This document shows positions 9,379-22,688 of a stretch of DNA of 64,000 bases, piece after piece. Made by a program: the position numbers and the translations under genes. This stretch comes from Sphingomonas sp. 8AM (GTDB taxonomy: Bacteria > Pseudomonadota > Alphaproteobacteria > Sphingomonadales > Sphingomonadaceae), in NCBI RefSeq assembly GCF_902506455.1, contig NZ_LR733844.1, positions 1,977,260 to 2,041,259 of the forward strand, given 5' to 3'. A model generated the notes under the pieces. That model was not told the DNA's origin. It made no database searches and was given only the letters and a program-made list of their open reading frames with translations. Numbering within the stretch: the stretch's first letter is position 1; every line of letters begins with the position of its first letter.

Positions 9379-10380
9379 TTAGTGCGTATCCTGCCCCGCC
9401 GCATAGATCGCGTCGAGCACCCGCGCGGTCGCGACATGGTCTTCCGCCGCCGCGTCGAACCGTGCGCCAGCCGCCAGCCGTTCCGCCCAGTCGACTGCGG
9501 CGCGCCCGCCCCAGTCGTCGGGCGGCACCGCCAGCGTCTCGCGCGCGGTGCCGCGGAAATGCTCGGCGGTGAAATCGTAGAACGAGCCCGCGACGTTGCG
9601 CAGCGCCGCGCCGCCCTCGGTGCCATAGAACGCCGCCTCGATCACCGCATCCTGCCCGGCGTGGAGCCGCCACGAACAGGCCAGTCGTACGACGACGCCG
9701 TTATCCAGCCGCACCGTCGCCGCCGCATAATCCTCGACCGCGTCCGCCGCGACCGGCGCCCCGCCAGCGTAGAGCGCAGCACCGACCCGCTCGGCCGTCG
9801 CCCCCGGATTGAGCCACAAGGCGAGGTCGGCAAGGTGGATGCCAAGATCCATGACGCACCCGCCGCCGGACTGCGCGCGGTCGTAGAACCACGGCTTGTC
9901 CGGGCCATAGGCATTGTGGAACGTCAGATCGATCGCGAACAGCTTTCCCAGCGCACCGCTCCGCACCAGCGGCGCGATCGCGCGCATTCCCGCGGTGTGG
10001 CGATAGGACAGATCGACCCCGAGCAACCGGTCGGCGCGCCGTGCCGCCGCAACCACCGCCGCATTCTCGGCGGCATCGCGCCCGAGCGGCTTCTGGCAGA
10101 ACACCGCCACCCCGGCGTCCAGCGCCACGATCGACTGCGCGGCATGGAGCGCGCTCGGGCTGGCGATCACCACCCCGTCGAGCCCGAGCGCCAGCATCTC
10201 CTCCAGTGACGCGCAGACCTGCGCGCCGGGTGCGTCCTGCACCGCCGCCGCCGCCATCTCCACCGACGGATCGCTGATCGCGACCGCCTCGACCGCGCCG
10301 CTGCCGACCATTGCGCCCATTCGGTGCCGCCCGATCCAGCCGGTGCCGAGGAAGCCGATACGGGGTTTGGCGTGACTCAT
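9379..10380 (-). CDS. Gfo/Idh/MocA family NAD(P)-dependent oxidoreductase
   Basis: A 333-residue sugar dehydrogenase-like enzyme. The N-terminal Rossmann fold begins IGFLGTGWIGRHR, and the EKP-type motif is present as QKPLGRD, with the lysine used in hydride transfer. GGCVMDLGIHLADLA matches the conserved C-terminal-domain histidine region. The start at 10380 (MSHAKPRIG) follows GAAGGA; a start at 10398 (MKDDLF) is also possible. Such enzymes oxidise or reduce a ring hydroxyl of sugars, inositols or nucleotide sugars. It lies downstream of the MDR dehydrogenase on the same strand, and the pair flanks the glycan locus. The substrate is unknown. Confidence 0.88.
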   Translation of the reverse strand: MSHAKPRIGFLGTGWIGRHRMGAMVGSGAVEAVAISDPSVEMAAAAVQDAPGAQVCASLEEMLALGLDGVVIASPSALHAAQSIVALDAGVAVFCQKPLGRDAAENAAVVAAARRADRLLGVDLSYRHTAGMRAIAPLVRSGALGKLFAIDLTFHNAYGPDKPWFYDRAQSGGGCVMDLGIHLADLALWLNPGATAERVGAALYAGGAPVAADAVEDYAAATVRLDNGVVVRLACSWRLHAGQDAVIEAAFYGTEGGAALRNVAGSFYDFTAEHFRGTARETLAVPPDDWGGRAAVDWAERLAAGARFDAAAEDHVATARVLDAIYAAGQDTH

Positions 10381-10407
10381 GAAAAGATCGTCCTTCATCT
10401 ACTTTCC

Positions 10408-10666
10408 GTCATTCCCGCGCAGGCGGGAATCCAGACACGCCAACGTCGCGGGTCTTTCAATGCCGCAGAGGTTCCGGAGTCCCGCCTTCGCGAGGCCTCT
10501 GCGAAAGTGCGGGATCATGCCCTTTGTCGGCCGTTCCCCGGCAGAGGCCGGGGTCAAGTCGGGAAGGTATTTCCGTTAGTTACAAACATGCCCCAACTGG
10601 GCCCCGGCCTTCGCCGGGGTACAAGAAGGAGCCATTTGCAGCGGTCTCGCCTGCGCGGGAACGACG
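10408..10666. repeat. Cluster of degenerate REP-like palindromes
   Basis: The 290-bp space between the MDR and Gfo/Idh genes holds only repeats. GTCATTCCCGCGCAGGCGGG starts at 10408 and a degenerate reverse arm (CCTGCGCGGGAACGAC) ends near 10666. Between them are shorter palindromes around CCGGCAGAGGCCGG and CCCCGGCCTTCGCCGGGG. No gene is seen. Confidence 0.65.
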
Positions 10667-10670
10667 GTGG

Positions 10671-11630
10671 TCACCCGAACGTCACCACCGCCTTCACGAA
10701 CCCGGCAGGCTTGTCGCGCGTCGCGGCAACCGCCTCGTTCAGTTCCGCCAACGTAAAGCGATGCGTCAGCAGCGCCGCCAGATCGACGCGCCCCCCGGCC
10801 ACCGCTGCCACCGCCTCGTTGAGCCCGCGCAAATTCACCCGCGGATCGCGTTCATGCGCGTTGATCACGTCGATGCCCTTCCAGTTCCAGTCCTGCATGT
10901 TCACCTGCCGCGGCCCGTCCTGATGATAGCCCGCCACCATCAGCCGCCCGCCGAACCCGACGATCGCCGAGGCGAGGTCGAGCGGCCATTGCTTGCCGAC
11001 CGCCTCGATCACGCGTTCGCACAACGCCTCACCGGTCAGCTGCTTGACCCGCTCGATGATCGCCCAGTGATCGTCCATCGCGATCGTCTCGGCCGCACCG
11101 TTCGCGCGCGCCAGCGCCAGCGACTCCTCACGCCGTGAGATCGCGATCACCCGCGCCCCGGCGTCGCTCGCCAGCTTCGTCAGTACGGCGCCGAGAAAGC
11201 CGATCCCGACGATCGCCACCGTCTGCCCAGGCAGCACGTCGGCGCGGCGGAAGATGTTCATCGCGCACGCCAGCGGCTCGCCCGGAAACGCCTGCCCGTC
11301 GAGCGCGGCTGGCAGCCGCACCAGTTGATCGACCGAAGCCACGTCATACGGCGCGAAGCTATGCCCCGACAGCATCGTCACCCGCTCGCCGATCGCAACG
11401 TCGTCGACGCCCGCGCCCAGCGCATCGACGACGCCCCAGCCCTCATGCCCCATCCCGCCGGTCTCACTGGGATAGGTCGACCACGGTTGTCCCTCCCACG
11501 GCTCGACGTTCGACGCGCAGACGCCGCAGCCCTCCAGCCGCACGCGCACCTCGCCCGCGCCCGGTTGCGGCACCGGCGCGTCGCGCACCTCGAACCGCCC
11601 GGGCGCCACCAGCACCGCCGCCGGCATCAT
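10671..11630 (-). CDS. Zinc-type alcohol dehydrogenase family protein (MDR superfamily)
   Basis: A 319-residue medium-chain dehydrogenase. The N-terminal GroES-like domain has CGVCASNVE and GMGHEGWG, the positions of the catalytic zinc ligands. The nucleotide-binding loop is VAIVGIGFLGAVL. It lacks the four-cysteine structural zinc lobe. The ATG at 11630 was chosen; a second ATG directly follows, and GGAAG lies just upstream. The start is 35 bp from the divergent DUF1003 gene. Together with the downstream Gfo/Idh gene it could oxidise a sugar alcohol or sugar, but the substrate cannot be read from the sequence. Confidence 0.85.
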   Translation of the reverse strand: MMPAAVLVAPGRFEVRDAPVPQPGAGEVRVRLEGCGVCASNVEPWEGQPWSTYPSETGGMGHEGWGVVDALGAGVDDVAIGERVTMLSGHSFAPYDVASVDQLVRLPAALDGQAFPGEPLACAMNIFRRADVLPGQTVAIVGIGFLGAVLTKLASDAGARVIAISRREESLALARANGAAETIAMDDHWAIIERVKQLTGEALCERVIEAVGKQWPLDLASAIVGFGGRLMVAGYHQDGPRQVNMQDWNWKGIDVINAHERDPRVNLRGLNEAVAAVAGGRVDLAALLTHRFTLAELNEAVAATRDKPAGFVKAVVTFG

Positions 11631-11665
11631 GCTTCCATTATCGTGCGACAATCGTTGGACTTCCC

Positions 11666-12175
11666 ATGAATGAACCGCGTGATCTGAACGGCGCGCTCGC
11701 CGACAACATCCACCGCCTTGCCGAGCGCCAGCGCCGCGTCGAGGCCGATGCTCCCTGGTCGGACCGGCTGGCCGCCCGGATCACCGGCTTCACCGGGTCG
11801 ATGACCTTCGTCGCGCTCCACCTGACGTACTTTGGCGGCTGGATCGTATGGAACCTGTATTTGTCGCCCAAGTTCGACCCGACCTTCGTCGTGCTGGCGA
11901 TGATCGCGTCGGTGGAGGCGATCTTCCTTTCCACCTTCGTCCTCATCAGCCAGAACCGCATGGCCGCGCAGGCACAGGCGCGCGCCGACCTCGACCTCCA
12001 CATCAACCTGCTCGCCGAGCACGAACTGTCGCGGCTCACCGCGGTCGTCCGCCAGATCGCCGAGCGGGTCGGGGTCGAACCGCCCGACGACATCGCCGAG
12101 ATCGAACGCGACGTCCGCGCCGAAGACGTGCTCGACACGCTCGACCGCGTTATGCCGTCGCCGTCCGGCTCGTGA
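11666..12175 (+). CDS. DUF1003-family membrane protein
   Basis: A 169-residue inner-membrane protein of the DUF1003 type. It has a soluble N-terminus (DRLAARITGFTGSMTFV), two membrane segments (about residues 48-70 and 78-102; WIVWNLYLSP between them, then EAIFLSTFVLISQNRM) and a helical cytoplasmic tail with the family's RADLDLHINLLAEHELS. The function of DUF1003 is unknown. The start is ATG 11666 (MNEPRDLNG). Its last 26 bp overlap the end of the convergent hydrolase gene. It interrupts the glycan locus and may not belong to it. Confidence 0.85.
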   Translation: MNEPRDLNGALADNIHRLAERQRRVEADAPWSDRLAARITGFTGSMTFVALHLTYFGGWIVWNLYLSPKFDPTFVVLAMIASVEAIFLSTFVLISQNRMAAQAQARADLDLHINLLAEHELSRLTAVVRQIAERVGVEPPDDIAEIERDVRAEDVLDTLDRVMPSPSGS

Positions 12176-13067
12176 CCGCCGCAGGCGCGTAGCGGTCGAT
12201 CATCCACGCGCAAAAATCCGCGAAGGCCTGCGGATCGCGCGCCGCGCTGGTGTGATGCGGCTGGATGCCGAGATGCTCGGGGGTGAAGCAGAACGTCACC
12301 GTCGTATCGAACTCGGCGAGCGCTTCCATCTGCCGGTCGAACCAGTCGGTCGCATTGGGACGGAAGCTGTCGGCCCAGCTCAACCCGGTGCGCAGCTTCT
12401 TCGTCCCCAGCCGCTTCATCCACGTGACCGCGTCGTCGAGCCGCGGGTCCTCGAAGTGGAACCATTGCATCAGCCCCATCTCCGACGCGACCCTGGCATA
12501 GCTGTCGAGCGACGGCTTGGGCGTGCCGTCCTCGCGGATCAGCCCCATGTAGAAGTGGCGGTAATAGCTCGATCCCTCCGCCTCGCGATGGCGGGTGGTC
12601 GCGCCCCATTCCTGCGGCAGGTCGAACAGCGAATACCAATAGACGCGCGGCACGCGCCCGATCAGCAGCTCGGCGGTCTTCTCGACCCCGAACACCTGCA
12701 CCTCCTCCGCGCCGAACGAGCCGACGCCGACCTCGGTGACCCACACCGGCTTGTCGGTGACCGCCTCGATCTCGGCGATCTTCGCGGGCCAGTCGTGGAT
12801 CGACCACAGGTTCCAGTCGAGCGGAAAGCCGTGCACCGCCAGCACGTCGACCGCGTCGAGGCAGCCGTGTGCCTCCAGCCGCTTCACCCACAACGGGTCG
12901 ATTGGCGACATGCCCCCCAGCACGCGCGTCACCGCCGGATTGACCGCCGCGATCGAAGTCCCGGCGCGCTTGACGGTATCGGCGAACAGCGACCAGTCGG
13001 GGTCGACCTCCGGGTCCCAATGCGACTTGTTGTTCGGCTCGTTCCAGATCATCGCGGCTTCGATCAC
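12150..13067 (-). CDS. Clan-A glycoside hydrolase (beta-xylosidase-like), apparently circularly permuted
   Basis: A 305-residue protein starting at GTG 13067, whose GTGA overlaps the methyltransferase stop. It opens almost at once with IWNEPN (residues 7-12), the acid/base strand beta-4 of clan-A TIM barrels. VDVLAVHGFPLDW, then KPVWVTEVGVGSF (nucleophile on beta-7) and YWYSLFDLP (beta-8) follow. Only after these come LGTKKLRTGLSWAD, TVTFCFTPEHLG and FADFCAWMIDRYAP, which resemble strands beta-1 to beta-3 that normally precede the NEP strand. The domain order therefore looks rotated, while both catalytic glutamates are kept. The longer upstream reading frame only shadows the methyltransferase. 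No signal peptide is seen, so it should act in the cytoplasm. The substrate is unknown. Confidence 0.8.
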   Translation of the reverse strand: MIEAAMIWNEPNNKSHWDPEVDPDWSLFADTVKRAGTSIAAVNPAVTRVLGGMSPIDPLWVKRLEAHGCLDAVDVLAVHGFPLDWNLWSIHDWPAKIAEIEAVTDKPVWVTEVGVGSFGAEEVQVFGVEKTAELLIGRVPRVYWYSLFDLPQEWGATTRHREAEGSSYYRHFYMGLIREDGTPKPSLDSYARVASEMGLMQWFHFEDPRLDDAVTWMKRLGTKKLRTGLSWADSFRPNATDWFDRQMEALAEFDTTVTFCFTPEHLGIQPHHTSAARDPQAFADFCAWMIDRYAPAAVTSRTATA

Positions 13068-13852
13068 GCGCGCACTCCCCCCGTGGATGGATAGACCGCC
13101 GCCGGCCCGTGCTCGGCAAAGGGCACGTCGCTGATGCGGCAGAGATAGACATCGTCCTGCGGATGCGCCGTCACGGTAAAGCCCGCCGCGCGCAGCATCG
13201 CTTCCGAGCAGGCGCGGTTCGGCGCCCACCAATTGGTCCAGTCGCCCGCGAACTTGCGCTCGATGAAGTGCAGCTTCGGATAGTCGCGATCGTCGAAATA
13301 TTCGGGCGGGGTCCAGGTGCCGGGCACGTAGAAGGGGTGATCCTCCGGTACCTGCGCGTCGTCCTTCGACCCCTGCTGCATCGTCTGGAACAGCATCAGG
13401 TCGCCGGCGACATGCTCGCGGATCAGGTCGAGCGCGAGCAGCGGATGCCGAAGGTGATACAGCACCCCCATGAAGATCACGAGATCGAACCGTTCGCCGA
13501 GCTGCGCGACGTCATAGACCGACAGGTTACGGAACTCGACGCTGCCGGCGAACCCCAAAGCCTCGCTCGCCAGCCGCGCCTGCGCCAGATAGCGGTCATC
13601 GGAATCGATCCCCACCACCCGCGCCGCGCCGCGACGCTTCATCTCGACCGAATAGAAGCCGGCGTTGCACCCGACATCCAGCACCGTCTTGCCGGTCAGA
13701 TCCTCGGGCAGGCAGACGCCGAATTCGGCGAACTTGTTGCCGGGATAATCGAGCAGAAAATGATCGGGCGCGGTCTGCACACCGCCGGGCAGATGAATGT
13801 TGTGGAACCACGGGGCCAGCTCGGCGACCCGCGCACGCAAATCTTCGGTCAT
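13064..13852 (-). CDS. Class I SAM-dependent methyltransferase (TIGR04290/CmoB-like)
   Basis: The 262-residue protein starts at MTEDLRARVAELAPW, 4-5 nt after GGGGGA. The SAM motif is VLDVGCNAGFYS; VVGIDSDDRYL and FDLVIFMGVLYHLRHP follow. The early WFHNIHLPGG and DYPGNKF recall the CmoB-related methyltransferases and, from memory, the family TIGR04290. CmoB modifies tRNA, but this relative sits in a glycan locus and shares a 4-nt overlap with the permuted hydrolase, so a sugar or lipid-sugar substrate is as likely. The upstream 120 bp are shared with the divergent GT9-like gene. Confidence 0.85.
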   Translation of the reverse strand: MTEDLRARVAELAPWFHNIHLPGGVQTAPDHFLLDYPGNKFAEFGVCLPEDLTGKTVLDVGCNAGFYSVEMKRRGAARVVGIDSDDRYLAQARLASEALGFAGSVEFRNLSVYDVAQLGERFDLVIFMGVLYHLRHPLLALDLIREHVAGDLMLFQTMQQGSKDDAQVPEDHPFYVPGTWTPPEYFDDRDYPKLHFIERKFAGDWTNWWAPNRACSEAMLRAAGFTVTAHPQDDVYLCRISDVPFAEHGPAAVYPSTGGVRA

Positions 13853-13925
13853 CAATCCCCCGTCACCCATCGACAGCATCAACTATCCTTGCGAGGCCCC
13901 GTTCCGCCTACTGATCTCGCTCAAT

Positions 13926-13933
13926 ATTATAAT
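13926..13933. promoter_or_regulatory. Possible overlapping divergent -10 elements
   Basis: ATTATAAT contains TATAAT on the plus strand (13928-13933) and on the minus strand (13926-13931) in an otherwise GC-rich 120-bp divergent gap. It could drive both the methyltransferase/hydrolase pair and the GT9-like/DUF6165 pair. No good -35 sequence was found. Confidence 0.35.
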
Positions 13934-13971
13934 GCGGAACCGCCGCCGGGGTGCGCCGCGTTTGCGGCGGC

Positions 13972-14883
13972 ATGAGCGATCACGGCTGGACCCGGGCGAT
14001 GCGCGAGGAGCGCTACGAGGACGCCTGGGCGATCGAGCGCGCGGTGCTCGCCGCGCGCGATCCGGCGACATGCGACGATCCGACGCTCCCCTATCACCAG
14101 CGCTGGGTCTGGGACGGAAGCGCGGTCGACGATCGCGACGTGCTGGTGCGCTGCTATCACGGGCTCGGCGACACGCTGCAATTCGCGCGGTTTCTCCCAG
14201 TGCTGGCACGACGCGCGCGGTCGGTGGCGGTCGAGGCACCCGCGCGACTTCACCCGTTGCTGCGCTTCCCCGGCATCGCGCTGGCTGCGTTCGACGATGC
14301 ACACCCGCTGCCGCCGTCCGGCTGCGACATCGAGATCACCGAACTGGCATTCGCGCTACGCTGTGCCCCTCGCGACGTACCCGTTCCCTATCTCCACACC
14401 ACCCCCGCCCCGCTCCCCCACGACACGGTCGGGCTCTGCTGGCAGGCCGGCGACTGGGATGCCGACCGCTGGGTGCCCCCCGCGCTGCTCGAACCGATCG
14501 CGGCGCGGCACCGCTGCCTGTCGCTGGTGAGCGCGCCGACCACGCTACCGGTCATCAACCCCGAAGGCTGCCCGTTCGACCTCGCCGCGACCGCCGCGCT
14601 GGTCGCGGGCTGCGCGCTGGTCATCACCGTCGACACGATGATCGCGCATCTCGCTGGCGCGCTCGGGCGCCCGACGTGGCTGCTGCTCAAGGCCGCGCCC
14701 GACTGGCGCTGGGACCCCGCGCGCCGCGACAGCGCCTGGTACCCGCACACCCGCCTCTACGCACAGCCGACCGCGGGCGACTGGCAGACGCCGCTCGCCA
14801 CGATCGCGCGCGATCTCGACATGATCCAAGGAGAAGACCATGGCCAGCCTCCCCAGCCCGTCCGTGCCCGTGTCCTGGGGTGA
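13972..14883 (+). CDS. Glycosyltransferase family 9-like protein
   Basis: A 303-residue protein (start MSDHGWTR at 13972) resembling the GT9-type domain found in TPR-linked glycosyltransferases and, distantly, LPS heptosyltransferases. Signs are VRCYHGLGDTLQFARFLP near residue 60 (the N-terminal loop), GLCWQAGDWDADRW and the acceptor/donor region ITVDTMIAHLAGALGRPTW. No TPR repeats precede it. The nucleotide-sugar donor cannot be inferred. Its final 44 bp overlap the DUF6165-like gene in another frame, so expression is tightly coupled. It probably acts in the cytoplasm or at the inner membrane face. Confidence 0.8.
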   Translation: MSDHGWTRAMREERYEDAWAIERAVLAARDPATCDDPTLPYHQRWVWDGSAVDDRDVLVRCYHGLGDTLQFARFLPVLARRARSVAVEAPARLHPLLRFPGIALAAFDDAHPLPPSGCDIEITELAFALRCAPRDVPVPYLHTTPAPLPHDTVGLCWQAGDWDADRWVPPALLEPIAARHRCLSLVSAPTTLPVINPEGCPFDLAATAALVAGCALVITVDTMIAHLAGALGRPTWLLLKAAPDWRWDPARRDSAWYPHTRLYAQPTAGDWQTPLATIARDLDMIQGEDHGQPPQPVRARVLG

Positions 14884-15238
14884 GTTGCTCGACAAGATCA
14901 CGATCCTCGAAATCAAGCAGCACCGCATCGACCGTGCCGACGCCCGCGCCAATGTCGCGCGCGAACATTCGCTGTTGTCGCGGATCGGCGCAGGGGTGCT
15001 CGGGCAGGACGAAGTCGCGCCGCTCTACGCGCGACTGAAGTCCGTCAACGAGGATCTGTGGGAGATCGAGGACGCGATCCGCCGCGAGGAAGCCGCACGC
15101 AGCTTCGGCGGCGAGTTCATCCGGCTGGCGCGCGCAGTGTACGTCAAGAACGACGAACGCGCGGCACTGAAGCGCGCCATCAACGTCGCGCTGGAATCGG
15201 ACCTGATCGAAGAGAAGAGTTATGCGGCGGTGAATTGA
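14840..15238 (+). CDS. DUF6165-like small protein
   Basis: A 132-residue soluble protein starting at ATG 14840 after AAGGAGAAGACC. The N-terminal VPVSWGELLDKITILEIKQHRI is the recognisable core of the DUF6165 family; the rest is helical. To my knowledge the function is unknown, and relatives are often seen beside surface-polysaccharide or TPR-glycosyltransferase genes, as here. It begins inside the GT9-like gene, so the two are probably translated together and may work as partners. Confidence 0.8.
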   Translation: MASLPSPSVPVSWGELLDKITILEIKQHRIDRADARANVAREHSLLSRIGAGVLGQDEVAPLYARLKSVNEDLWEIEDAIRREEAARSFGGEFIRLARAVYVKNDERAALKRAINVALESDLIEEKSYAAVN

Positions 15239-15293
15239 GTTTTTTTGACACAGCCGCGGCGTGTTCGGGGCGACAACACCGCTAGATTAGATA

Positions 15294-15364
15294 GACATGG
15301 GCCCCTGCCTGCGCAGGGGCGACAAGAAGAACCGTCGCCCCTGCGCAGGCAGGGGCCTATGTCT
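15294..15364. repeat. Long near-perfect inverted repeat (GCCCCTGCCTGCGCAGGGGC type)
   Basis: GACATGGGCCCCTGCCTGCG and its complement (ending CAGGGGCCTATGTC) face each other across a spacer of about 15 nt. Each arm also contains the self-complementary CCCTGCGCAGG. The element fills most of the 169-bp gap between the convergent DUF6165-like and phosphatase genes. Confidence 0.8.
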
Positions 15365-15407
15365 GTGAAGTCCATCCCGACGACGCGCCGGTCACAACGA
15401 CAATGTG

Positions 15408-15989
15408 TCACATACAACGCTCATTCACCGCCACCACCATCGCCCCCTCGCCCTCCAGCGAAAGCGTCGTCACCGACCCCGGATCGCACCCCAGCGAGAA
15501 GATCCGCTCCAGCGGCAATCCGAGATAATGCGCCACCACCCCGCGGATCACATCGCAATGCGACACACATAACGTCACACCCTCCCCGCACGCGGCGACG
15601 AACGTGACCGCGCGCGCCACCGCCTCCGCCATCGTCTCACCGCCCGGACAACGCGCGGTCCCGCGCTCGGCATTCCAGCGCTGCCAGTCGGGATCGCCGT
15701 CGAGCGCCGCGAACGACCGTCCGGTAAAATCACCGAAGTCGATTTCATCCAGCGCCGCGTCCGCCATCACCGGCAGTTGCAACGCCGCCGCGACCACCGC
15801 TGCCGTTTCGCGGGTCCGTGCACGCGGGCTCGTTACGATCCGCCTCACCCCGCGCGCCGCCACCAGTCGTGCAAGCGCGGCAGCCTCCGCCTGTCCCTGC
15901 TGGTTCAGGGAGATATTGGAACGACCGCTCAGAACGCGGCCGACTTCTTGGTGATGCCCGTGCCGGGCAAGCAAAATACTTCTCGCCAT
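15408..15989 (-). CDS. Histidine phosphatase family protein
   Basis: A 193-residue member of the phosphoglycerate mutase-like histidine phosphatases. The phospho-histidine is in LLARHGHHQ (His10), the second catalytic histidine in LCVSHCDVIRG, and TSPRARTRETA and EIDFGDFTG are the other family landmarks. Such enzymes dephosphorylate small sugar phosphates, cobalamin intermediates or other metabolites. In this locus a sugar-phosphate phosphatase role is plausible but not proven. It is divergent from the epimerase operon with a 164-bp gap. Confidence 0.88.
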   Translation of the reverse strand: MARSILLARHGHHQEVGRVLSGRSNISLNQQGQAEAAALARLVAARGVRRIVTSPRARTRETAAVVAAALQLPVMADAALDEIDFGDFTGRSFAALDGDPDWQRWNAERGTARCPGGETMAEAVARAVTFVAACGEGVTLCVSHCDVIRGVVAHYLGLPLERIFSLGCDPGSVTTLSLEGEGAMVVAVNERCM

Positions 15990-16141
15990 TCCGGATTGAT
16001 CTGCGTCAGTTCAGAAGCGCTGTCCATGAAAATTACGCTGGCGCAATAATTTCAGGAACCAAGCTAAGTAGAAGATGTTCTTACTGACGCAATCAACCAG
16101 CAATGAACGTGCGTGTCATTGATGGAGATCAAGTGCGGGGC

Positions 16142-16147
16142 GGAGGA
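16142..16147 (+). promoter_or_regulatory. Ribosome-binding site that decides the epimerase start
   Basis: GGAGGA lies 6 nt before GTG 16154 (GTG GAA ACC ATT). This is a much better start context than the in-frame ATG at 16103, which has no comparable site and would add 17 residues ahead of the Rossmann strand. Confidence 0.65.
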
Positions 16148-16153
16148 ACATTC

Positions 16154-17266
16154 GTGGAAACCATTCTCATCACCGGCGGGGCCGGCTTCATCGGTCGTTT
16201 CGTAGCCGATGAACTGCTGGCACGCGGCCATGAGGTGCGGGTACTGGACAGCCTGATCGAGCAAGTCCACGGCGATTGCGAGCGCCCGCCGCTCCTCAAC
16301 GACGCGGTCGAGCTGATCCGCGGCGACATCCGCAACGGCGATGTCGTCAGCAAGGCGCTCGACGGCGTCGACAGCGTCATCCACCTCGCTGCCGAGGTCG
16401 GCGTCGGCCAGTCGATGTACGAGGTCGAACGCTACACCTCCACCAACGACGTCGGCACCGCCGTGCTCTTCGAGAAGCTGATCGACAAGCCGGTCCGCCG
16501 CGTCGTCACCGCCTCCTCGATGTCGATCTATGGCGAGGGGCTGTACCGCGATGCCGACGGCAATCTGGTGCAGGACGCCGAGCGCAAGGGGCTGCGCGAC
16601 GGGCTGACCAACTGGGAGCCGGTCGATGCACAGGGTCGTCCGCTGACGCCCGTCGCGACGCCGGAGTGGAAGCAGCCCAACCTCGCCTCGATCTACGCGC
16701 TCAACAAATATGTGCAGGAGCGCACCACGCACATCATGGCCGCGCCCTATGGGATCGAAGGCGTGTGCCTGCGGCTGTTCAATGTCTACGGCCCGGGCCA
16801 GGCGCTCTCCAACCCCTATACCGGCGTGCTCGCAATCTTCGCGTCGCGTCTCCTCAACGGCCAGAAGCCGATGATCTTCGAGGACGGCGAGCAGCGCCGC
16901 GACTTCGTCCATGTCAGCGACGTGGCGCGTGGCTTCGCCGATGCCTTGTTCCTTCCGCAGGCGGTCGGCGGCACGTTCAACATCGGCTCGGGTCACGACC
17001 GTTCGGTCACCGAAGTCGCGACCGAACTCGCCAAGGCGATGGGCAAGAACGACCTGACGCCGGAGATCGTCGGCAAGGCGCGGATCGGCGACATCCGCCA
17101 CTGCTTCTGCGACACCACGCTCGCGCAGGAACGGCTCGACTTCCGCGCGACGCAGGACTTCACCGCCGGCCTTGCCGAACTCGCCGAATGGGTCGCGGAA
17201 CAGACCGCCGAGGACAAGGTCGCGACGATGCGCGCCGAGCTCGAGCGCCGCGGGCTGGTCGCATGA
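16154..17266 (+). CDS. NAD-dependent epimerase/dehydratase (nucleotide-sugar, extended SDR)
   Basis: A 370-residue extended SDR. It begins ETILITGGAGFIG (NAD-binding GxxGxxG at residues 8-14), has HLAAEVGVGQSM, the serine region TASSMSIYGEG and the catalytic YALNKY (YxxxK). FNVYGPGQ and RRDFVHVSDVARGF are typical of UDP-glucose 4-epimerase and dTDP-glucose dehydratase relatives. It is the first gene of a six-gene run and overlaps the next gene by ATGA. The likely role is to make an activated sugar for the transferases downstream; the exact sugar is not identifiable. A relatively long C-terminal helix (AELERRGLVA) is present. Confidence 0.88.
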   Translation: METILITGGAGFIGRFVADELLARGHEVRVLDSLIEQVHGDCERPPLLNDAVELIRGDIRNGDVVSKALDGVDSVIHLAAEVGVGQSMYEVERYTSTNDVGTAVLFEKLIDKPVRRVVTASSMSIYGEGLYRDADGNLVQDAERKGLRDGLTNWEPVDAQGRPLTPVATPEWKQPNLASIYALNKYVQERTTHIMAAPYGIEGVCLRLFNVYGPGQALSNPYTGVLAIFASRLLNGQKPMIFEDGEQRRDFVHVSDVARGFADALFLPQAVGGTFNIGSGHDRSVTEVATELAKAMGKNDLTPEIVGKARIGDIRHCFCDTTLAQERLDFRATQDFTAGLAELAEWVAEQTAEDKVATMRAELERRGLVA

Positions 17267-18330
17267 GCGGGCCGGTGCTGGTTACCGGCGGCGCCGGGTT
17301 CATCGGCTCCAACCTCGTCGACCGGCTTGCGAGTGAGGGGCATGACGTGGTGATCTACGACGCGCTCGCCCGCGCCGGGGTGGAGCGCAATCTCGCATGG
17401 CTGCGCCAGCGCCACGGCACGCGCATCCGCTTCGTCCACGCCGACATCCGCGACGCCGCGCGGCTCGCCGACGAGGTCGCGGGCGCATCGGCGGTGTTTC
17501 ACTTCGCCGCACAGGTGGCGGTGACCACCAGCCTCGACGACCCCGCCGACGATTTCACCACCAACATCACCGCCACCTTCCAGTTGCTGGAGGCAATCCG
17601 CACCCGCGCACCCGAAGTGCCGCTGATCTTTGCCTCGACGAACAAAGTGTACGGCGATCTCGCAGACCTCGACTTCGTGCTGGAAAACGAGGCCTATCAC
17701 CCCGTCGACCCGCACGTCCGCGCGCACGGCATCGGCGAGGCGCGCCCGCTCGACTTCCACACGCCTTACGGCGTGTCGAAGGGTGCCGCCGACCAGTACG
17801 TCCTCGATTACGCACGCAGCTTCGGGCTCAAGACCTGCGTCTTTCGAATGAGCTGCATCTACGGCCAGCGCCAGATGGGCACCGAGGATCAGGGCTGGGT
17901 CGCACATTTCCTGATCCGCGCGCTGAATGGCGAGCCGATCACCTTGTATGGCGACGGGCATCAGGTCCGCGACGTGCTCGACGTCCGCGATGCGGTGAAC
18001 GCCTATCTCGCCGCGTGGCGGCGGATCGACGATGTCGCCGGGCGCGCCTTCAATCTCGGCGGCGGCCCCGACAATGCCGTCAGCCTGCGCCAGTTGCTCG
18101 CGCATATCGCGACGCTCACCGGCCGCCCGGTCGATGTCCGCTATTCCGGCTGGCGCGCCGGCGATCAGCGCTATTTCGTCGCCGATGCGCGCGCTGCCGC
18201 AGCGACGCTCGCGTTGCCCGAACGCCGCGACTGGCGCGAGGGCGTCGGCGCGCTCGCCGACTGGTTGCAGCGCGAACATGCCGCCGCCCTCACGACCGCT
18301 GACGCAACCCCGATCGAGGTCGCTGCGTGA
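17263..18330 (+). CDS. NAD-dependent epimerase, CDP-paratose 2-epimerase-like
   Basis: A 355-residue extended SDR with VLVTGGAGFIGSNLVD, HFAAQVAVTTSLDDP, FASTNKVYGDL and the catalytic YGVSKGAAD. The ASTNKVYG motif and QVRDVLDVRDAVNAY resemble CDP-paratose 2-epimerase (RfbE/Tyv), which makes CDP-tyvelose for O-antigens. No CDP-glucose pathway genes are nearby, so the true substrate may differ. It overlaps the genes before (ATGA) and after (GTGA) by 4 nt. With the first epimerase it suggests a rare sugar made on the spot. Confidence 0.85.
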   Translation: MSGPVLVTGGAGFIGSNLVDRLASEGHDVVIYDALARAGVERNLAWLRQRHGTRIRFVHADIRDAARLADEVAGASAVFHFAAQVAVTTSLDDPADDFTTNITATFQLLEAIRTRAPEVPLIFASTNKVYGDLADLDFVLENEAYHPVDPHVRAHGIGEARPLDFHTPYGVSKGAADQYVLDYARSFGLKTCVFRMSCIYGQRQMGTEDQGWVAHFLIRALNGEPITLYGDGHQVRDVLDVRDAVNAYLAAWRRIDDVAGRAFNLGGGPDNAVSLRQLLAHIATLTGRPVDVRYSGWRAGDQRYFVADARAAAATLALPERRDWREGVGALADWLQREHAAALTTADATPIEVAA

Positions 18331-19412
18331 CAGGACGGCTGTTGATGACCGCCGATGCCGTCGGCGGGGTATGGCAATATGCGCTTCAACTCGCCGGCGA
18401 TCTGGTCCGCACCGGCTGGTCGGTCGACCTTGCCACGCTCGGCCCCGCCCCCTCGCCCGCGCACCACGCGCAGGCCGGGGCGGCAGGCGTCACGCTGATC
18501 GACACGCGTCTCCCGCTCGACTGGCTCGCCAGGGATGCGCAGGCAGTCGCCGTCGCCGCCGATGCGATCGCCGCACTCGCCGCCGCGCGCGCGGTCGATG
18601 TCGTCCAGCTCAACCAGCCCGCGCTCGCCATCGCCGATTTCGCCATGCCCGTCGTCGCGGTCGTCCATAGCTGTGTCGCAAGCTGGTGGGAGGCGGTCGA
18701 GCAAGGCCCGCTCCCCGCCGATCTCGCCTGGCAGACCGAACTGGTCGCGCGCGGCCTCGCCCGGGCCGACGCGATCGTCTGCCCGACCCGCGCCTTCGCC
18801 GCGACGATCCAGCGGCTCTATGCGCTCCCGGTCGCGCCGCGCGCGATCCACAACGGTCGCACGCTCCCGGCCGCCACCGGCGCGCTCGACGCGCGCGCCT
18901 TCACCGCCGGGCGGCTGTGGGATCGCGGCAAGAACATCGCGACGCTCGACCGCGCCGCCGCCACGCTGCCGCTGACGTTCCGCGCCGCCGGCCCCGCACG
19001 CGGTCCGCACGGCGAACACCACAAGCTCCACCACCTCGAACCGCTCGGCCGGATCAGCGACGCCGCGATCGCCGCCGCGCTGTCGACCCGCCCGATCTTC
19101 GCCTCCGCCGCCTGGTACGAGCCGTTCGGGCTCGCGGTGCTGGAAGCGGCGCTGACCGGCTGCGCGCTGGTACTGTCCGACATCCCGACCTTTCGCGAAT
19201 TGTGGGACGGCGTCGCGACCTTCGTCGCCGCCGACGACGCCGAGGGCTTCGCGCGCGCGATCGCCAACCTCGCCGCCGACACCGAGTTGCGGCTGGCACG
19301 CGGCGCGCTCGCCCGCACCCGCGCGCTCGATTACGCGCCCGAACGGACCGCGCGCGCGATGGCCGCGCTTTTCGATCGCGTCACCACCACCGGCGAGCGG
19401 GTCGCGGCATGA
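18327..19412 (+). CDS. Glycosyltransferase family 4-type (GT-B fold)
   Basis: A 361-residue GT-B glycosyltransferase. The start is GTG 18327 (GTG ACA GGA), overlapping the previous stop by GTGA; an ATG six codons later is possible. The C-terminal domain has the donor-binding EPFGLAVLEAALTG with the EX7E motif, followed by LSDIPTFRELWDG. AVGGVWQYA near the N-terminus is the usual acceptor-domain glycine loop of this group. It has no membrane segment and would work on the cytoplasmic side. It precedes three CgeB-like transferases in the same overlapped operon. Confidence 0.88.
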   Translation: MTGRLLMTADAVGGVWQYALQLAGDLVRTGWSVDLATLGPAPSPAHHAQAGAAGVTLIDTRLPLDWLARDAQAVAVAADAIAALAAARAVDVVQLNQPALAIADFAMPVVAVVHSCVASWWEAVEQGPLPADLAWQTELVARGLARADAIVCPTRAFAATIQRLYALPVAPRAIHNGRTLPAATGALDARAFTAGRLWDRGKNIATLDRAAATLPLTFRAAGPARGPHGEHHKLHHLEPLGRISDAAIAAALSTRPIFASAAWYEPFGLAVLEAALTGCALVLSDIPTFRELWDGVATFVAADDAEGFARAIANLAADTELRLARGALARTRALDYAPERTARAMAALFDRVTTTGERVAA

Positions 19413-20521
19413 AGCTGGTTTATTTCACCCACAGCCTCGCCTCGTGCTGGAACCACGGCAACGCACACTTCCTGCGCGGCGTCCTCTCCGAACTGATCGC
19501 GCGCGGGCACGACGTGCGCGTCTACGAACCGGCCGGCGCATGGAGCCTCGAAAACCTGCTCGCCGACAACGGCGACGCCGGGCTTGACGCCTATCGCACC
19601 GCCTACCCTGAACTGTCCTCCCACACCTTCACCCCCGACGCCGATCTCACCGAACTGGTCGACGGTGCGGACGTGGTGATCGTCCACGAATGGAACGCGC
19701 ACGATCTCGTCGCCGCGCTCGGCAAGCTGCGCCGCGACGGGGCAGGCTTCACGCTGCTGTTCCACGACACGCATCACCGCGCGGTCAGCGCGCCCGAGGA
19801 GATGCGCGCCTACGATCTCGACGGGTACGACGGCGTGCTCGCGTTCGGCGAGGCGCTGTCGCGCGTCTATCGCGACTGGGGCTGGGGCGACCGTGTCTGG
19901 ACGTGGCACGAAGCTGCCGATACGCGCCGCTTCTTCCCGGTCGACAGCGCGGAGCGCGACGGCCTCGTCTGGATCGGCAATTGGGGCGATGGCGAGCGCA
20001 CTGCCGAGATCGAGAACTATCTGCTCGCCCCCGCGCGCGACGCCGGGCTGCCGCTCGACATCTACGGCGTCCGCTACCCCGACGCGGGCAAGGCGATGCT
20101 CGCGGCGTATGGCGCGCGCTATCACGGCTGGGCACCCAACGCCGCCGCGCCCGCGCTTTTCGCGCGCGCACTGGCGACCGTCCATGTGCCCCGCCGCTAT
20201 TACACGACGATTCTGCCCGGCATCCCGACGATCCGCATGTTCGAGGCGCTCGCCTGCGGCCTGCCGCTCGCCAGTGCGCCATGGGACGATGCCGAGCATC
20301 TGTTCCGCCCCGGCACCGACTTCCTGTTCGCGCAGACGCCCGACGACATGACGCGCATCCTCGGCGACCTGCGCCACGACGCCGGTCTGCGCGCGTCGCT
20401 GGCCAGTGCCGGGCTCGAAACCATCCACGCGCGCCACACCTGCGCGCACCGCGTCGACGAACTGCTGGCAATCCTCGCCGGCCTCGACGCCCCTTCCCAT
20501 TTACGGAGCATCCCAGCGTGA
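19409..20521 (+). CDS. CgeB-like glycosyltransferase, copy 1
   Basis: A 370-residue protein starting MKLVYFTHSLASCWNHG with an ATGA overlap. It has the two-domain GT-B outline of the spore-maturation protein CgeB family: an acceptor half with RGVLSELIARGHDVRVYEP, and a donor half with VPRRYYTTILPGIPTIRM and FEALACGLPLASAPWD. CgeB in Bacillus is linked to spore-surface glycosylation; relatives occur widely in Gram-negative glycan loci. The three copies differ enough to suggest successive, distinct transfer steps rather than a recent duplication. Confidence 0.82.
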   Translation: MKLVYFTHSLASCWNHGNAHFLRGVLSELIARGHDVRVYEPAGAWSLENLLADNGDAGLDAYRTAYPELSSHTFTPDADLTELVDGADVVIVHEWNAHDLVAALGKLRRDGAGFTLLFHDTHHRAVSAPEEMRAYDLDGYDGVLAFGEALSRVYRDWGWGDRVWTWHEAADTRRFFPVDSAERDGLVWIGNWGDGERTAEIENYLLAPARDAGLPLDIYGVRYPDAGKAMLAAYGARYHGWAPNAAAPALFARALATVHVPRRYYTTILPGIPTIRMFEALACGLPLASAPWDDAEHLFRPGTDFLFAQTPDDMTRILGDLRHDAGLRASLASAGLETIHARHTCAHRVDELLAILAGLDAPSHLRSIPA

Positions 20522-21606
20522 AGATCGCCTTCTACGGGTCCAGTCTGCTGTCCTCCTACTGGAACGGCGCCGCGACCTATTATCGCGGCATCCTGCGCGC
20601 GCTCGGTGAGCGCGGCTACGACATCACCTTCTACGAACCCGATGCGTTCGAGCGGCAACAGCATCGCGACATCGACCCGCCCGCCTATGCCAAGGTCGTC
20701 GTCTATCCCGCGACGCACGATGCGCTGCGCGATGTATTGGCCGAGGCGGCAGACGCCGACATCGTCGTCAAGGCGAACGGCGTCGGCGTCTTCGATCGCG
20801 AACTGCTCGAAGGCATCATCGCGCACGCCCGTCCCGATGCGCTCAAGATCTTCTGGGACGTCGACGCCGCCGCGACGCTCGATGAGATGCGCGCCGACCC
20901 CGATCATCCGGTCACCGCCGCGCTGCCGCACCTCGACATGGTGCTCACCTACGGTGGCGGCGATCCGGTCGTGAACGCCTATCGCGCGTTCGGCGCGGTG
21001 AAGTGCGTGCCCGTTTACAACGCCTTGGACCCGCAGACCCACCACCCGGTCCCTGCCGACGACCGCTTCGCCTGCGACCTCGCCTTCCTCGGCAACCGCC
21101 TCCCCGACCGCGAGGCGCGCGTCGAAGAGTTCTTCCTCCGCCCCGCCGCCCTGCTCCCGCAGCAGAGCTTCCTGATCGGCGGCAACGGCTGGGATTCCAA
21201 ACACATGCCCTGCAACGTCCGCCACCGCGGCCATGTCTTCACCGCCGAGCACAACGCCTTCAACTGCACGCCGCGCGCAGTCCTCAACGTCGCGCGTGAC
21301 TCGATGGCGCATATCGGCTTCTCGCCCGCCACGCGCGTCTTCGAGGCCGCCGGCGCCGCCGCCTGCCTCATCACCGACGCTTGGGAAGGGATCGAGCTGT
21401 TCCTGATCCCCGATCAGGAAGTGCTGGTCGCGCGCGACGGACAGGACGTCGCCGACCATCTCGCCGCGCTCACCACCGAACGCGCGCAGCAGATCGGACA
21501 AGCCGCACTCAAGCGCGTCCTCGCCGAACACACCTATGATCTGCGCGGCGCGCAGGTCGACACTTTGTTCAAGGCGCACGCCGCCCGCCAGCGCGAGGCT
21601 GCGTGA
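20518..21606 (+). CDS. CgeB-like glycosyltransferase, copy 2
   Basis: The product has 362 residues and starts at GTG 20518 (GTG AAG ATC GCC), whose GTGA overlaps the previous stop. The N-terminus reads IAFYGSSLLSSYWNGAATYY, closely like the other two copies; RGILRALGERGYDITFYEPD follows. The donor half has RDSMAHIGFSPATRVFEAAG and CLITDAWEGIELF. A CNVRHRGHVF stretch and FLGNRLPDREARVEEFF are shared features of this family. Middle member of the tandem array; donor and acceptor unknown. Confidence 0.82.
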   Translation: MKIAFYGSSLLSSYWNGAATYYRGILRALGERGYDITFYEPDAFERQQHRDIDPPAYAKVVVYPATHDALRDVLAEAADADIVVKANGVGVFDRELLEGIIAHARPDALKIFWDVDAAATLDEMRADPDHPVTAALPHLDMVLTYGGGDPVVNAYRAFGAVKCVPVYNALDPQTHHPVPADDRFACDLAFLGNRLPDREARVEEFFLRPAALLPQQSFLIGGNGWDSKHMPCNVRHRGHVFTAEHNAFNCTPRAVLNVARDSMAHIGFSPATRVFEAAGAAACLITDAWEGIELFLIPDQEVLVARDGQDVADHLAALTTERAQQIGQAALKRVLAEHTYDLRGAQVDTLFKAHAARQREAA

Positions 21607-22688
21607 TGAAGCTCGTCGTCCTCGGCCTCTCGCTCAGCTCCAGCTGGGGCAACGGCCACGCCACCACCTTCCGCGCGCTGCTCCGCGCCTTTGCCGCGCG
21701 CGGGCACGACGTGCTGTTCCTCGAACGCGACATGCCCTGGTACGCCGCGCACCGCGACGAACCCGCGCCCGATTACTGCCGGCTCGAACTCTACGACAGC
21801 CTCGCGGCGCTGGCCGATTGGCGCACCGAGATCGAACAGGCCGATGCGGTGATGGTCGGCTCCTACGTCCCCGACGGAATCGACATCGGCAGACTGGTCC
21901 AGCAATGGCCGCGCGGCGTGACGACCTTCTACGACATCGACACGCCGGTCACGCTCGCAAAACTCGCGCGCGGCGCGTGCGACTATGTCTCGCCCGAGGT
22001 CATCCCCGGCTACGACGTCTATTGCTCGTTCACGGGCGGCCCGACGCTGCGGCTGATCGAGGCGCGCTACAAGAGTCCCGCCGCGCGCGCGCTCTATTGC
22101 TCGGTCGATGCTGACCGCTACCGCCCGACCGGCGTCGACAAGCGCTGGGACCTGTCGTATCTCGGCACTTATAGCGACGATCGCCAGCCGACGCTCGACC
22201 GCCTGCTGATCGAGCCCGCGCGACGTCACCCGGAAAAGCGCTTCGTCGTCGCCGGCCCGCAATACCCCGACACCATAGACTGGCCCGCCAACGTCGAGCG
22301 GATCGAGCATCTCGCCCCCGCCGACCACGCCGATTTCTATTCGGCGAGCCGCGCCACGCTCAACGTCACCCGCGCCGACATGATCGCCGCCGGCTGGTCG
22401 CCGTCGGTGCGGCTGTTCGAGGCGACCGCCTGCGGCACGCCGATCGTCTCGGATCGCTGGCCGGGAATCGACGAATTGCTGACGCCGGATGCCGAGATCC
22501 TGCTCGCCGATACCAGCGACGACGTCGAGGCGGCGCTCGCCCGCCCCGATCTCGATGCGATCGGCACCGCCGGCCGCGCCCGCGTGCTCGCCGAGCACAC
22601 CGCGCACCACCGCGCCGCCGAACTGGAAGCGCACCTCCACGAAGCGGCGGCGGCGAAACTGGCCACCCCGTCGTCAGTGCCAGCGTAG
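21606..22688 (+). CDS. CgeB-like glycosyltransferase, copy 3
   Basis: The product has 360 residues. The ATG at 21606 (MKLVVLGLSLSSSWGNGH) shares one base with the previous stop; a GTG three bases earlier would restore the GTGA overlap seen elsewhere. Family landmarks are FRALLRAFAARGHDVLFLERD, LSYLGTYSDDRQPTL and SPSVRLFEATACGTP followed by SDRWPGIDELL. The last four residues and the TAG stop are read from a REP-type repeat arm, so the natural C-terminus may have been altered by repeat insertion. Last gene of the six-gene run. Confidence 0.82.
   Translation: MKLVVLGLSLSSSWGNGHATTFRALLRAFAARGHDVLFLERDMPWYAAHRDEPAPDYCRLELYDSLAALADWRTEIEQADAVMVGSYVPDGIDIGRLVQQWPRGVTTFYDIDTPVTLAKLARGACDYVSPEVIPGYDVYCSFTGGPTLRLIEARYKSPAARALYCSVDADRYRPTGVDKRWDLSYLGTYSDDRQPTLDRLLIEPARRHPEKRFVVAGPQYPDTIDWPANVERIEHLAPADHADFYSASRATLNVTRADMIAAGWSPSVRLFEATACGTPIVSDRWPGIDELLTPDAEILLADTSDDVEAALARPDLDAIGTAGRARVLAEHTAHHRAAELEAHLHEAAAAKLATPSSVPA

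Follow-up and report, generated by a model that had tools for sequence, protein, structure and literature searches.

Glycosidases of clan GH-A, to which GH10 belongs, carry an Asn-Glu acid/base at the end of β-4 and a Glu nucleophile at the end of β-7. In the barrel of GH70 (clan GH-H), motif I lies on β-3 and motif II on β-4. GH70 is an example of a permuted glycosidase barrel, its motifs running in the order II-III-IV-I (PMC11299179). Transaldolase B and class I aldolase are also permuted TIM barrels, offset by two units (PMC2213659); unlike the protein described here, they are not glycosidases. Other permuted cases named in the literature are MalS of GH13, a permuted CE4 enzyme and a GH3 enzyme whose domains are permuted, and one paper that also mentions GH10 counts 54 permuted Pfam domain cases. 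With motif I on β-3 and motif II on β-4, the GH70 motif order places the chain opening at the same site as in our hydrolase, a notable parallel between two clans; GH70 glucansucrases differ in belonging to clan GH-H and in being large multi-domain enzymes that act on α-glucans. Excerpts of papers mentioning both permutation and GH10 yielded no natural GH10 permutant, and a mostly open-access search, covering sources in part, yielded no natural permuted clan GH-A barrel, which is weak evidence of absence. By sequence, the nearest solved structure to the hydrolase is PslG, a periplasmic GH39 endo-β-glucanase of Pseudomonas aeruginosa encoded in a polysaccharide operon; its acid/base is Glu165 and its nucleophile Glu276 (PMC11912335).

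The window (the whole 64,000-nucleotide stretch of DNA that was analyzed) encodes a 305-residue permuted glycoside hydrolase at 12150..13067 on the minus strand, as judged from an open reading frame check together with the profile, relatives and predicted model described below. The GTG start at 13067 shares bases (GTGA) with the stop of the upstream methyltransferase gene. By profile and model, residues 1 through 185 (12513..13067, minus strand) correspond to β-4 to β-8 of a normal barrel and come first in the chain, and residues 194 through 294 (12186..12488, minus strand) correspond to β-1 to α-3 and come last. The acid/base strand (IWNEPN, residues 7 through 12) thus stands at the start, followed by the nucleophile strand (KPVWVTEVG, residues 106 through 114), as the sequence-only reading had it; further along are residues 220 through 233 (LGTKKLRTGLSWAD), 256 through 267 (TVTFCFTPEHLG) and 282 through 295 (FADFCAWMIDRYAP). 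In Pfam, PF11790 (Glyco_hydro_cc) passes its gathering score (28 bits against 21), yet covers only residues 3 through 124 of 305, so that less than half of such a permuted protein is recognized; a GH53 match is weak (E 0.21), and no NCBIfam model matches at E up to 0.1. Public records list the orthologues under the names beta-xylosidase, glycosyl hydrolase or hypothetical protein. Codon changes relative to five relatives fall mostly at third positions (a sixth, L091, was left out because an indel threw the alignment off).

A profile of normal segment order was built from six normal-order domains (329 positions; the decayed copy L030, described below, was left out). On the native protein it aligns as two blocks, profile positions 121 through 297 with residues 6 through 184 (95.4 bits) and positions 12 through 114 with residues 194 through 294 (48.1 bits); the latter bears out the earlier claim that segments like β-1 to β-3 and the RY helix are C-terminal. 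The check proposed with that claim, duplication of the protein head to tail, gave one unbroken match across the join (profile 12 through 297 of 329, residues 194 through 489, 142.0 bits). A rotation scan over 31 cut points has one clear maximum of 144.8 bits, with the cut after residue 190. Among 200 duplicated shuffles, 87 had any match, the best at 2.9 bits; as the normal-order profile finds two swapped blocks and shuffles reach no more than this, the order of segments is not due to chance. Of 15 permuted proteins duplicated in this way, 13 have the unbroken match as their top hit (the window protein and 12 of 14 relatives); the blocks stayed separate in L004 and L010, the longest chains of the 15. 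An alignment of 13 permuted and 3 rotated normal-order proteins has 54 invariant columns, 35 in residues 1 through 185 and 19 in residues 186 through 305, and identity to the three normal-order proteins is 56 to 61 of 173 positions in the first part and 31 to 34 of 106 to 110 in the second (about 29 to 35% per half). Over the whole domain, then, the N-terminal part resembles the C-terminal part of the relatives and the reverse. Profile, relatives and predicted model all support the reading of a circularly permuted TIM barrel, and by sequence and predicted model the gene product is a circularly permuted clan GH-A (GH39/PslG-like) barrel whose chain is opened between α-3 and β-4.

A contig scan of named genomes returned at least 562 relatives, of which the best 80 were kept (71 to 98% identity). 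All of these best 80 have the permuted order, each as one colinear match, which excludes an assembly fault. Counted from aligned residue 1, their chains are 303 to 337 residues long, and 76 of the 80 have a start codon (ATG, GTG or TTG) at residue 1; the other four would need to start at Met6 or further upstream, although in two of these four a stop codon lies just two codons before that position. Of the 80 relatives, 19 carry an in-frame stop no more than 20 codons upstream. A missing N terminus had been named as something that would overturn the permuted reading, and no extra β-1 to β-3 region was found in these best 80 of at least 562 relatives, nor any hydrolase-like sequence in the 700 bases before their starts. 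They include Sphingomonas, Sphingobium, Paracoccus, Microvirga, Rubellimicrobium and one record labeled Lysobacterales. A search of plasmids matched 147 records, and in 97 the match covered 80% or more of the query; viral contigs gave no relative. The flag of one TGA at L046 proved to be the gene's own stop, the alignment continuing for ten codons beyond it into LWN, which is too short for a relic.

Glu10 (WNEPN; 13038..13040, minus strand) is the probable acid/base and Glu112 (WVTEVG; 12732..12734, minus strand) the probable nucleophile; they align with Glu165 and Glu276 of PslG. Both are invariant in three alignments (15 permuted proteins; 54 permuted proteins; 13 permuted and 3 rotated normal-order proteins), so the claim that both catalytic glutamates are kept stands. 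In accordance with the clan GH-A rule, Asn9-Glu10 follows the strand at residues 2 through 7 (equivalent to β-4), and Glu112 lies in the strand at residues 108 through 113 (equivalent to β-7). A search with the permuted profile matches PslG (PDB: 4zn2, 5bx9) with its blocks in swapped order, at a weak E of 4.6e-6 in total: profile 4 through 154 aligns with chain residues 133 through 302 (21.9 bits) and profile 200 through 296 with residues 25 through 131 (a weak 6.2 bits that alone is not significant). Glu10 and Glu112 fall on PslG chain residues 139 and 250, which are 111 apart, the same spacing as Glu165 and Glu276. The two proteins share catalytic glutamates, local barrel motifs and, in PslG as here, a gene among those for saccharide synthesis, whereas PslG is periplasmic and has the normal segment order.

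A structure was predicted with AlphaFold2 from 54 sequences, the window protein and 53 of the 80 loci (near-identical sequences were left out, as were the four that lack a start codon at residue 1). The model has a mean pLDDT of 84.8 and a pTM of 0.86, with pLDDT below 50 at residues 82 through 84, 155 through 167 and 299 through 305. Its strands span residues 2-7, 47-53, 75-79, 108-113, 142-145, 198-200, 224-230 and 254-260; helices lie between the strands, and the final helix covers 279-293. By profile alignment these eight strands are β-4 to β-8, followed by β-1 to β-3. The model has the (β/α)8 architecture of a clan GH-A barrel, and we infer that the hydrolase folds as one closed barrel. 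A C-terminal half forming a separate domain, the other finding that would have spoken against permutation, was not seen: the predicted model is one eight-strand barrel, and residues 1 through 297 align with known TIM barrels in VIA-align (best Z 13.3, GH20, 245 residues at 4.0 Å; a designed barrel, Z 12.5, 215 residues at 3.5 Å). The best VIA matches are unrelated TIM barrels, and Foldseek TM-scores by model length are poor (0.29 to 0.44 in 28 matches with E up to 0.001). Both programs align sequentially and are therefore blind to rotation; PslG and GH39 are absent among the 50 Foldseek and 50 VIA matches listed, an absence that does not exclude the family.

The normal segment order occurs in relatives fused to an epimerase. 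Searching 398 genomes of the phylum with the window protein gave 21 matching genomes: 12 with a full-length permuted orthologue (the window's own included), two (G315 and G265) in which a part like residues 197 through 294 or 188 through 294 directly precedes a part like residues 7 through 184, and seven with weaker matches, five of them from one family and termed PslG-like. In both reversed cases the hydrolase forms the N-terminal domain of a protein fused to an epimerase. A search of 385 genomes of the class with the normal-order domain matched 14, six with the normal form only, six with the permuted form only and two with both; as 2 of 14 carry both, the forms are not strictly exclusive. 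In one of these two genomes (G709), the epimerase-fused normal copy (L030; 1168-2040, plus strand) has lost both catalytic glutamates, its WNEPN stretch being replaced and ITEAG changed to ITGTG, and the permuted copy (L039) is intact. In the other (G578), the contig end truncates the normal copy, so that only the part from the nucleophile glutamate onward is present. A 37-residue match to the normal form in G617 (L049) looks like chance, its frame reading neither as hydrolase nor as epimerase. Proteins at seven loci (L013, L014, L025-L029) combine a GH-A-like hydrolase domain with an NAD-dependent sugar epimerase; in the annotated records listed, they are annotated only as epimerase. Compared with the window protein, the epimerase-fused hydrolases (RHE_RS22270 of Rhizobium etli CFN 42, that of Tistrella mobilis) have a matching cluster, the same active-site motifs and ∼29 to 35% identity in both halves (three proteins); they differ in that β-1 comes first and in that the hydrolase is one part of a two-domain protein.

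The hydrolase gene lies in a cluster that spans 9379 to 22688 of the window. On the minus strand it includes a Gfo/Idh/MocA oxidoreductase (9379..10398; the closest NCBIfam model, inositol 2-dehydrogenase, scores below its cut-off), a zinc-binding dehydrogenase (10671..11651; family models and cluster comparison), a TIGR04290 family methyltransferase directly upstream of the hydrolase (13064..13882; 359 bits, cut-off 300) and a histidine phosphatase (15408..15989), with two further genes between the last two. On the plus strand are two NAD-dependent epimerases, epimerase 1 (16103..17266; family models and cluster comparison) and epimerase 2 (17263..18330), whose counterpart in the other type of cluster bears the normal-order hydrolase N-terminally. 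Four glycosyltransferase genes follow (18345-19412, 19409-20521, 20518-21606 and 21606-22688, plus strand), with counterparts annotated as glycosyltransferases in R. etli.

Twenty such regions from 19 genomes were compared. The permuted hydrolase is present in 14, each time beside TIGR04290; nine of these have adjacent epimerases 1 and 2 without a hydrolase domain, and five lack that pair in the stretch. The remaining six have the normal-order domain fused before epimerase 2 (one is the decayed L030 copy), with TIGR04290 in five and the permuted hydrolase in none within the stretches. Among the 398 genomes TIGR04290 scores above its cut-off in 14, and these are precisely those that carry the permuted enzyme (12) or the normal-order one (2). 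In the best 80 of at least 562 relatives it is directly upstream on the same strand in 74 and anywhere in the stretch in 76, histidine phosphatase is found in 69 and inositol-3-phosphate synthase in 48. In Sphingobium yanoikuyae, Azospirillum lipoferum and Sinorhizobium medicae the genes for synthase and hydrolase lie in line. The synthase was not found in the 64-kb window, and the stretch fetched from R. etli CFN 42 has neither it nor histidine phosphatase, which makes the connection to inositol weak in these organisms. The permuted form is found in Sinorhizobium meliloti 1021 (pSymB, about 257,009-257,896 by tblastn) and the normal one in R. etli CFN 42, and their clusters share dehydrogenases, epimerases, glycosyltransferases and TIGR04290. 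Our literature search found no paper naming TIGR04290 or TIGR04295. In three further examples of the conserved cluster (L151, L152 and L155), the records show inositol-3-phosphate synthase, histidine phosphatase, TIGR04290, dehydrogenases, epimerases and four glycosyltransferases; two records also have a UDP-glucuronate decarboxylase, and one has a B12-binding radical SAM protein of family TIGR04295.

Taken as one joint reading, it is highly probable that the gene encodes a naturally permuted (β/α)8 glycosidase of clan GH-A, with PslG (GH39) nearest, that is cytoplasmic and serves the surrounding cluster. By sequence and predicted model, the normal chain was opened between α-3 and β-4, and a linker some nine residues long connects its old ends, α-8 and β-1; the barrel is thereby built in the order 4-5-6-7-8-1-2-3. 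Glu10, at the end of the first strand (normally β-4), and Glu112, at the end of the fourth (normally β-7), would share one rim, and catalysis would follow the retaining double-displacement mechanism of the clan, with Glu10 as putative acid/base and Glu112 as putative nucleophile. A barrel strand is predicted from residue 2, which leaves no room for a signal peptide; this, and the fusion of the counterpart to an epimerase, suggest a cytoplasmic location. The enzyme likely acts on a glycosidic intermediate that the cluster around it produces, and would probably trim or transfer a sugar during synthesis of a possibly inositol-linked glycoconjugate. The role that we propose is thus that of a cytoplasmic retaining glycosidase in making a glycoconjugate whose inositol link is possible, to judge from neighboring genes. 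In other genomes its place in the cluster would be filled by the normal-order enzyme fused to epimerase 2; as relatives with the same kind of cluster carry that enzyme, one job is seemingly done with both wirings.

Two readings would deny the permutation itself. That the protein is an N-terminally truncated barrel, having lost β-1 to β-3 and gained an unrelated C-terminal domain, would fit the recognition of its first part only by Pfam (PF11790), but residues 194 through 294 match β-1 to α-3 of normal relatives at 48.1 bits and hold 19 of the 54 invariant columns, and the model has all eight strands; we regard truncation as scarcely credible. We give equally little credence to the idea that the chain only looks rotated because of the eightfold pseudo-symmetry of TIM barrels. 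In its favor, sequential fold comparison does align the whole model with unrelated TIM barrels; the rotation, however, is defined by motifs that occur once per barrel (WNEPNN, HGFP, RTxLSWA and RY), and against the single clear maximum of the rotation scan no unrotated profile alignment scored as high.

Other alternatives accept the permuted barrel and concern its function and history. It is improbable that it has ceased to be a glycosidase and now serves the biosynthetic machinery as a binding or scaffold protein: the normal-form L030 is indeed still kept as an epimerase-fused domain with both glutamates lost, whereas in the permuted form both glutamates and the surrounding motifs are invariant across 15 and 54 proteins. 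The permutation could also have arisen by fission and fusion, the fused gene being split and its pieces rejoined in the other order, rather than through a tandem duplication that was later trimmed. Since the normal form makes up one domain of a fusion gene, these genes have been rearranged, and in the best 80 of at least 562 relatives there is no trace of a second copy: apart from the gene's own end, the 700 bases in front of the gene and the 600 behind it hold no hydrolase-like sequence, and with the longest chain at 337 residues there is no tandem duplicate among them. Old traces of duplication would fade with time, however, and no separate half-genes were found; we hold this route to be less likely than not. 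In a tree of 31 permuted, 6 normal-order and 5 PslG-like sequences (L030, being decayed, L016, L017 and most of the 80 relatives were left out), the normal clade joins inside the permuted sequences by a very long branch. Constraining the permuted sequences to stay together costs 0.12 log units (p-AU 0.434); the tree did not place the origin of the permutation, and a single origin is allowed by it but not shown.

For the permuted clan GH-A glycosidase, we lean slightly toward a wider claim: that its family, probably numbering hundreds beyond the members seen and found chiefly in Alphaproteobacteria, represents the first natural clan GH-A permutation and has displaced the normal-order epimerase-fused version within one biosynthetic cluster, and that where both occur the normal form can decay (L030 against L039 in G709). 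In matching clusters the permuted and the normal form seem to fulfil one and the same task, even between two genera of a single family (S. meliloti 1021 and R. etli CFN 42); on that account folding order, the cost or gain of permutation and the replacement of one topology by another become directly testable. The cluster itself points to an undescribed, possibly inositol-linked, glycoconjugate pathway.

A gene at 11666-12175 of the window (plus strand), which we take to encode a DUF1003 protein, lies inside the operon on the opposite strand, and the 3' ends of this gene and the hydrolase gene overlap by 26 bases; the annotation of a public record places a DUF1003 gene close to the cluster. On the Sphingobium yanoikuyae plasmid (L155), genes for a sigma-70 factor, a Crp/Fnr regulator, a manganese catalase and DUF892 lie near the cluster; these stress-type genes may hint at a role of the product in stress.
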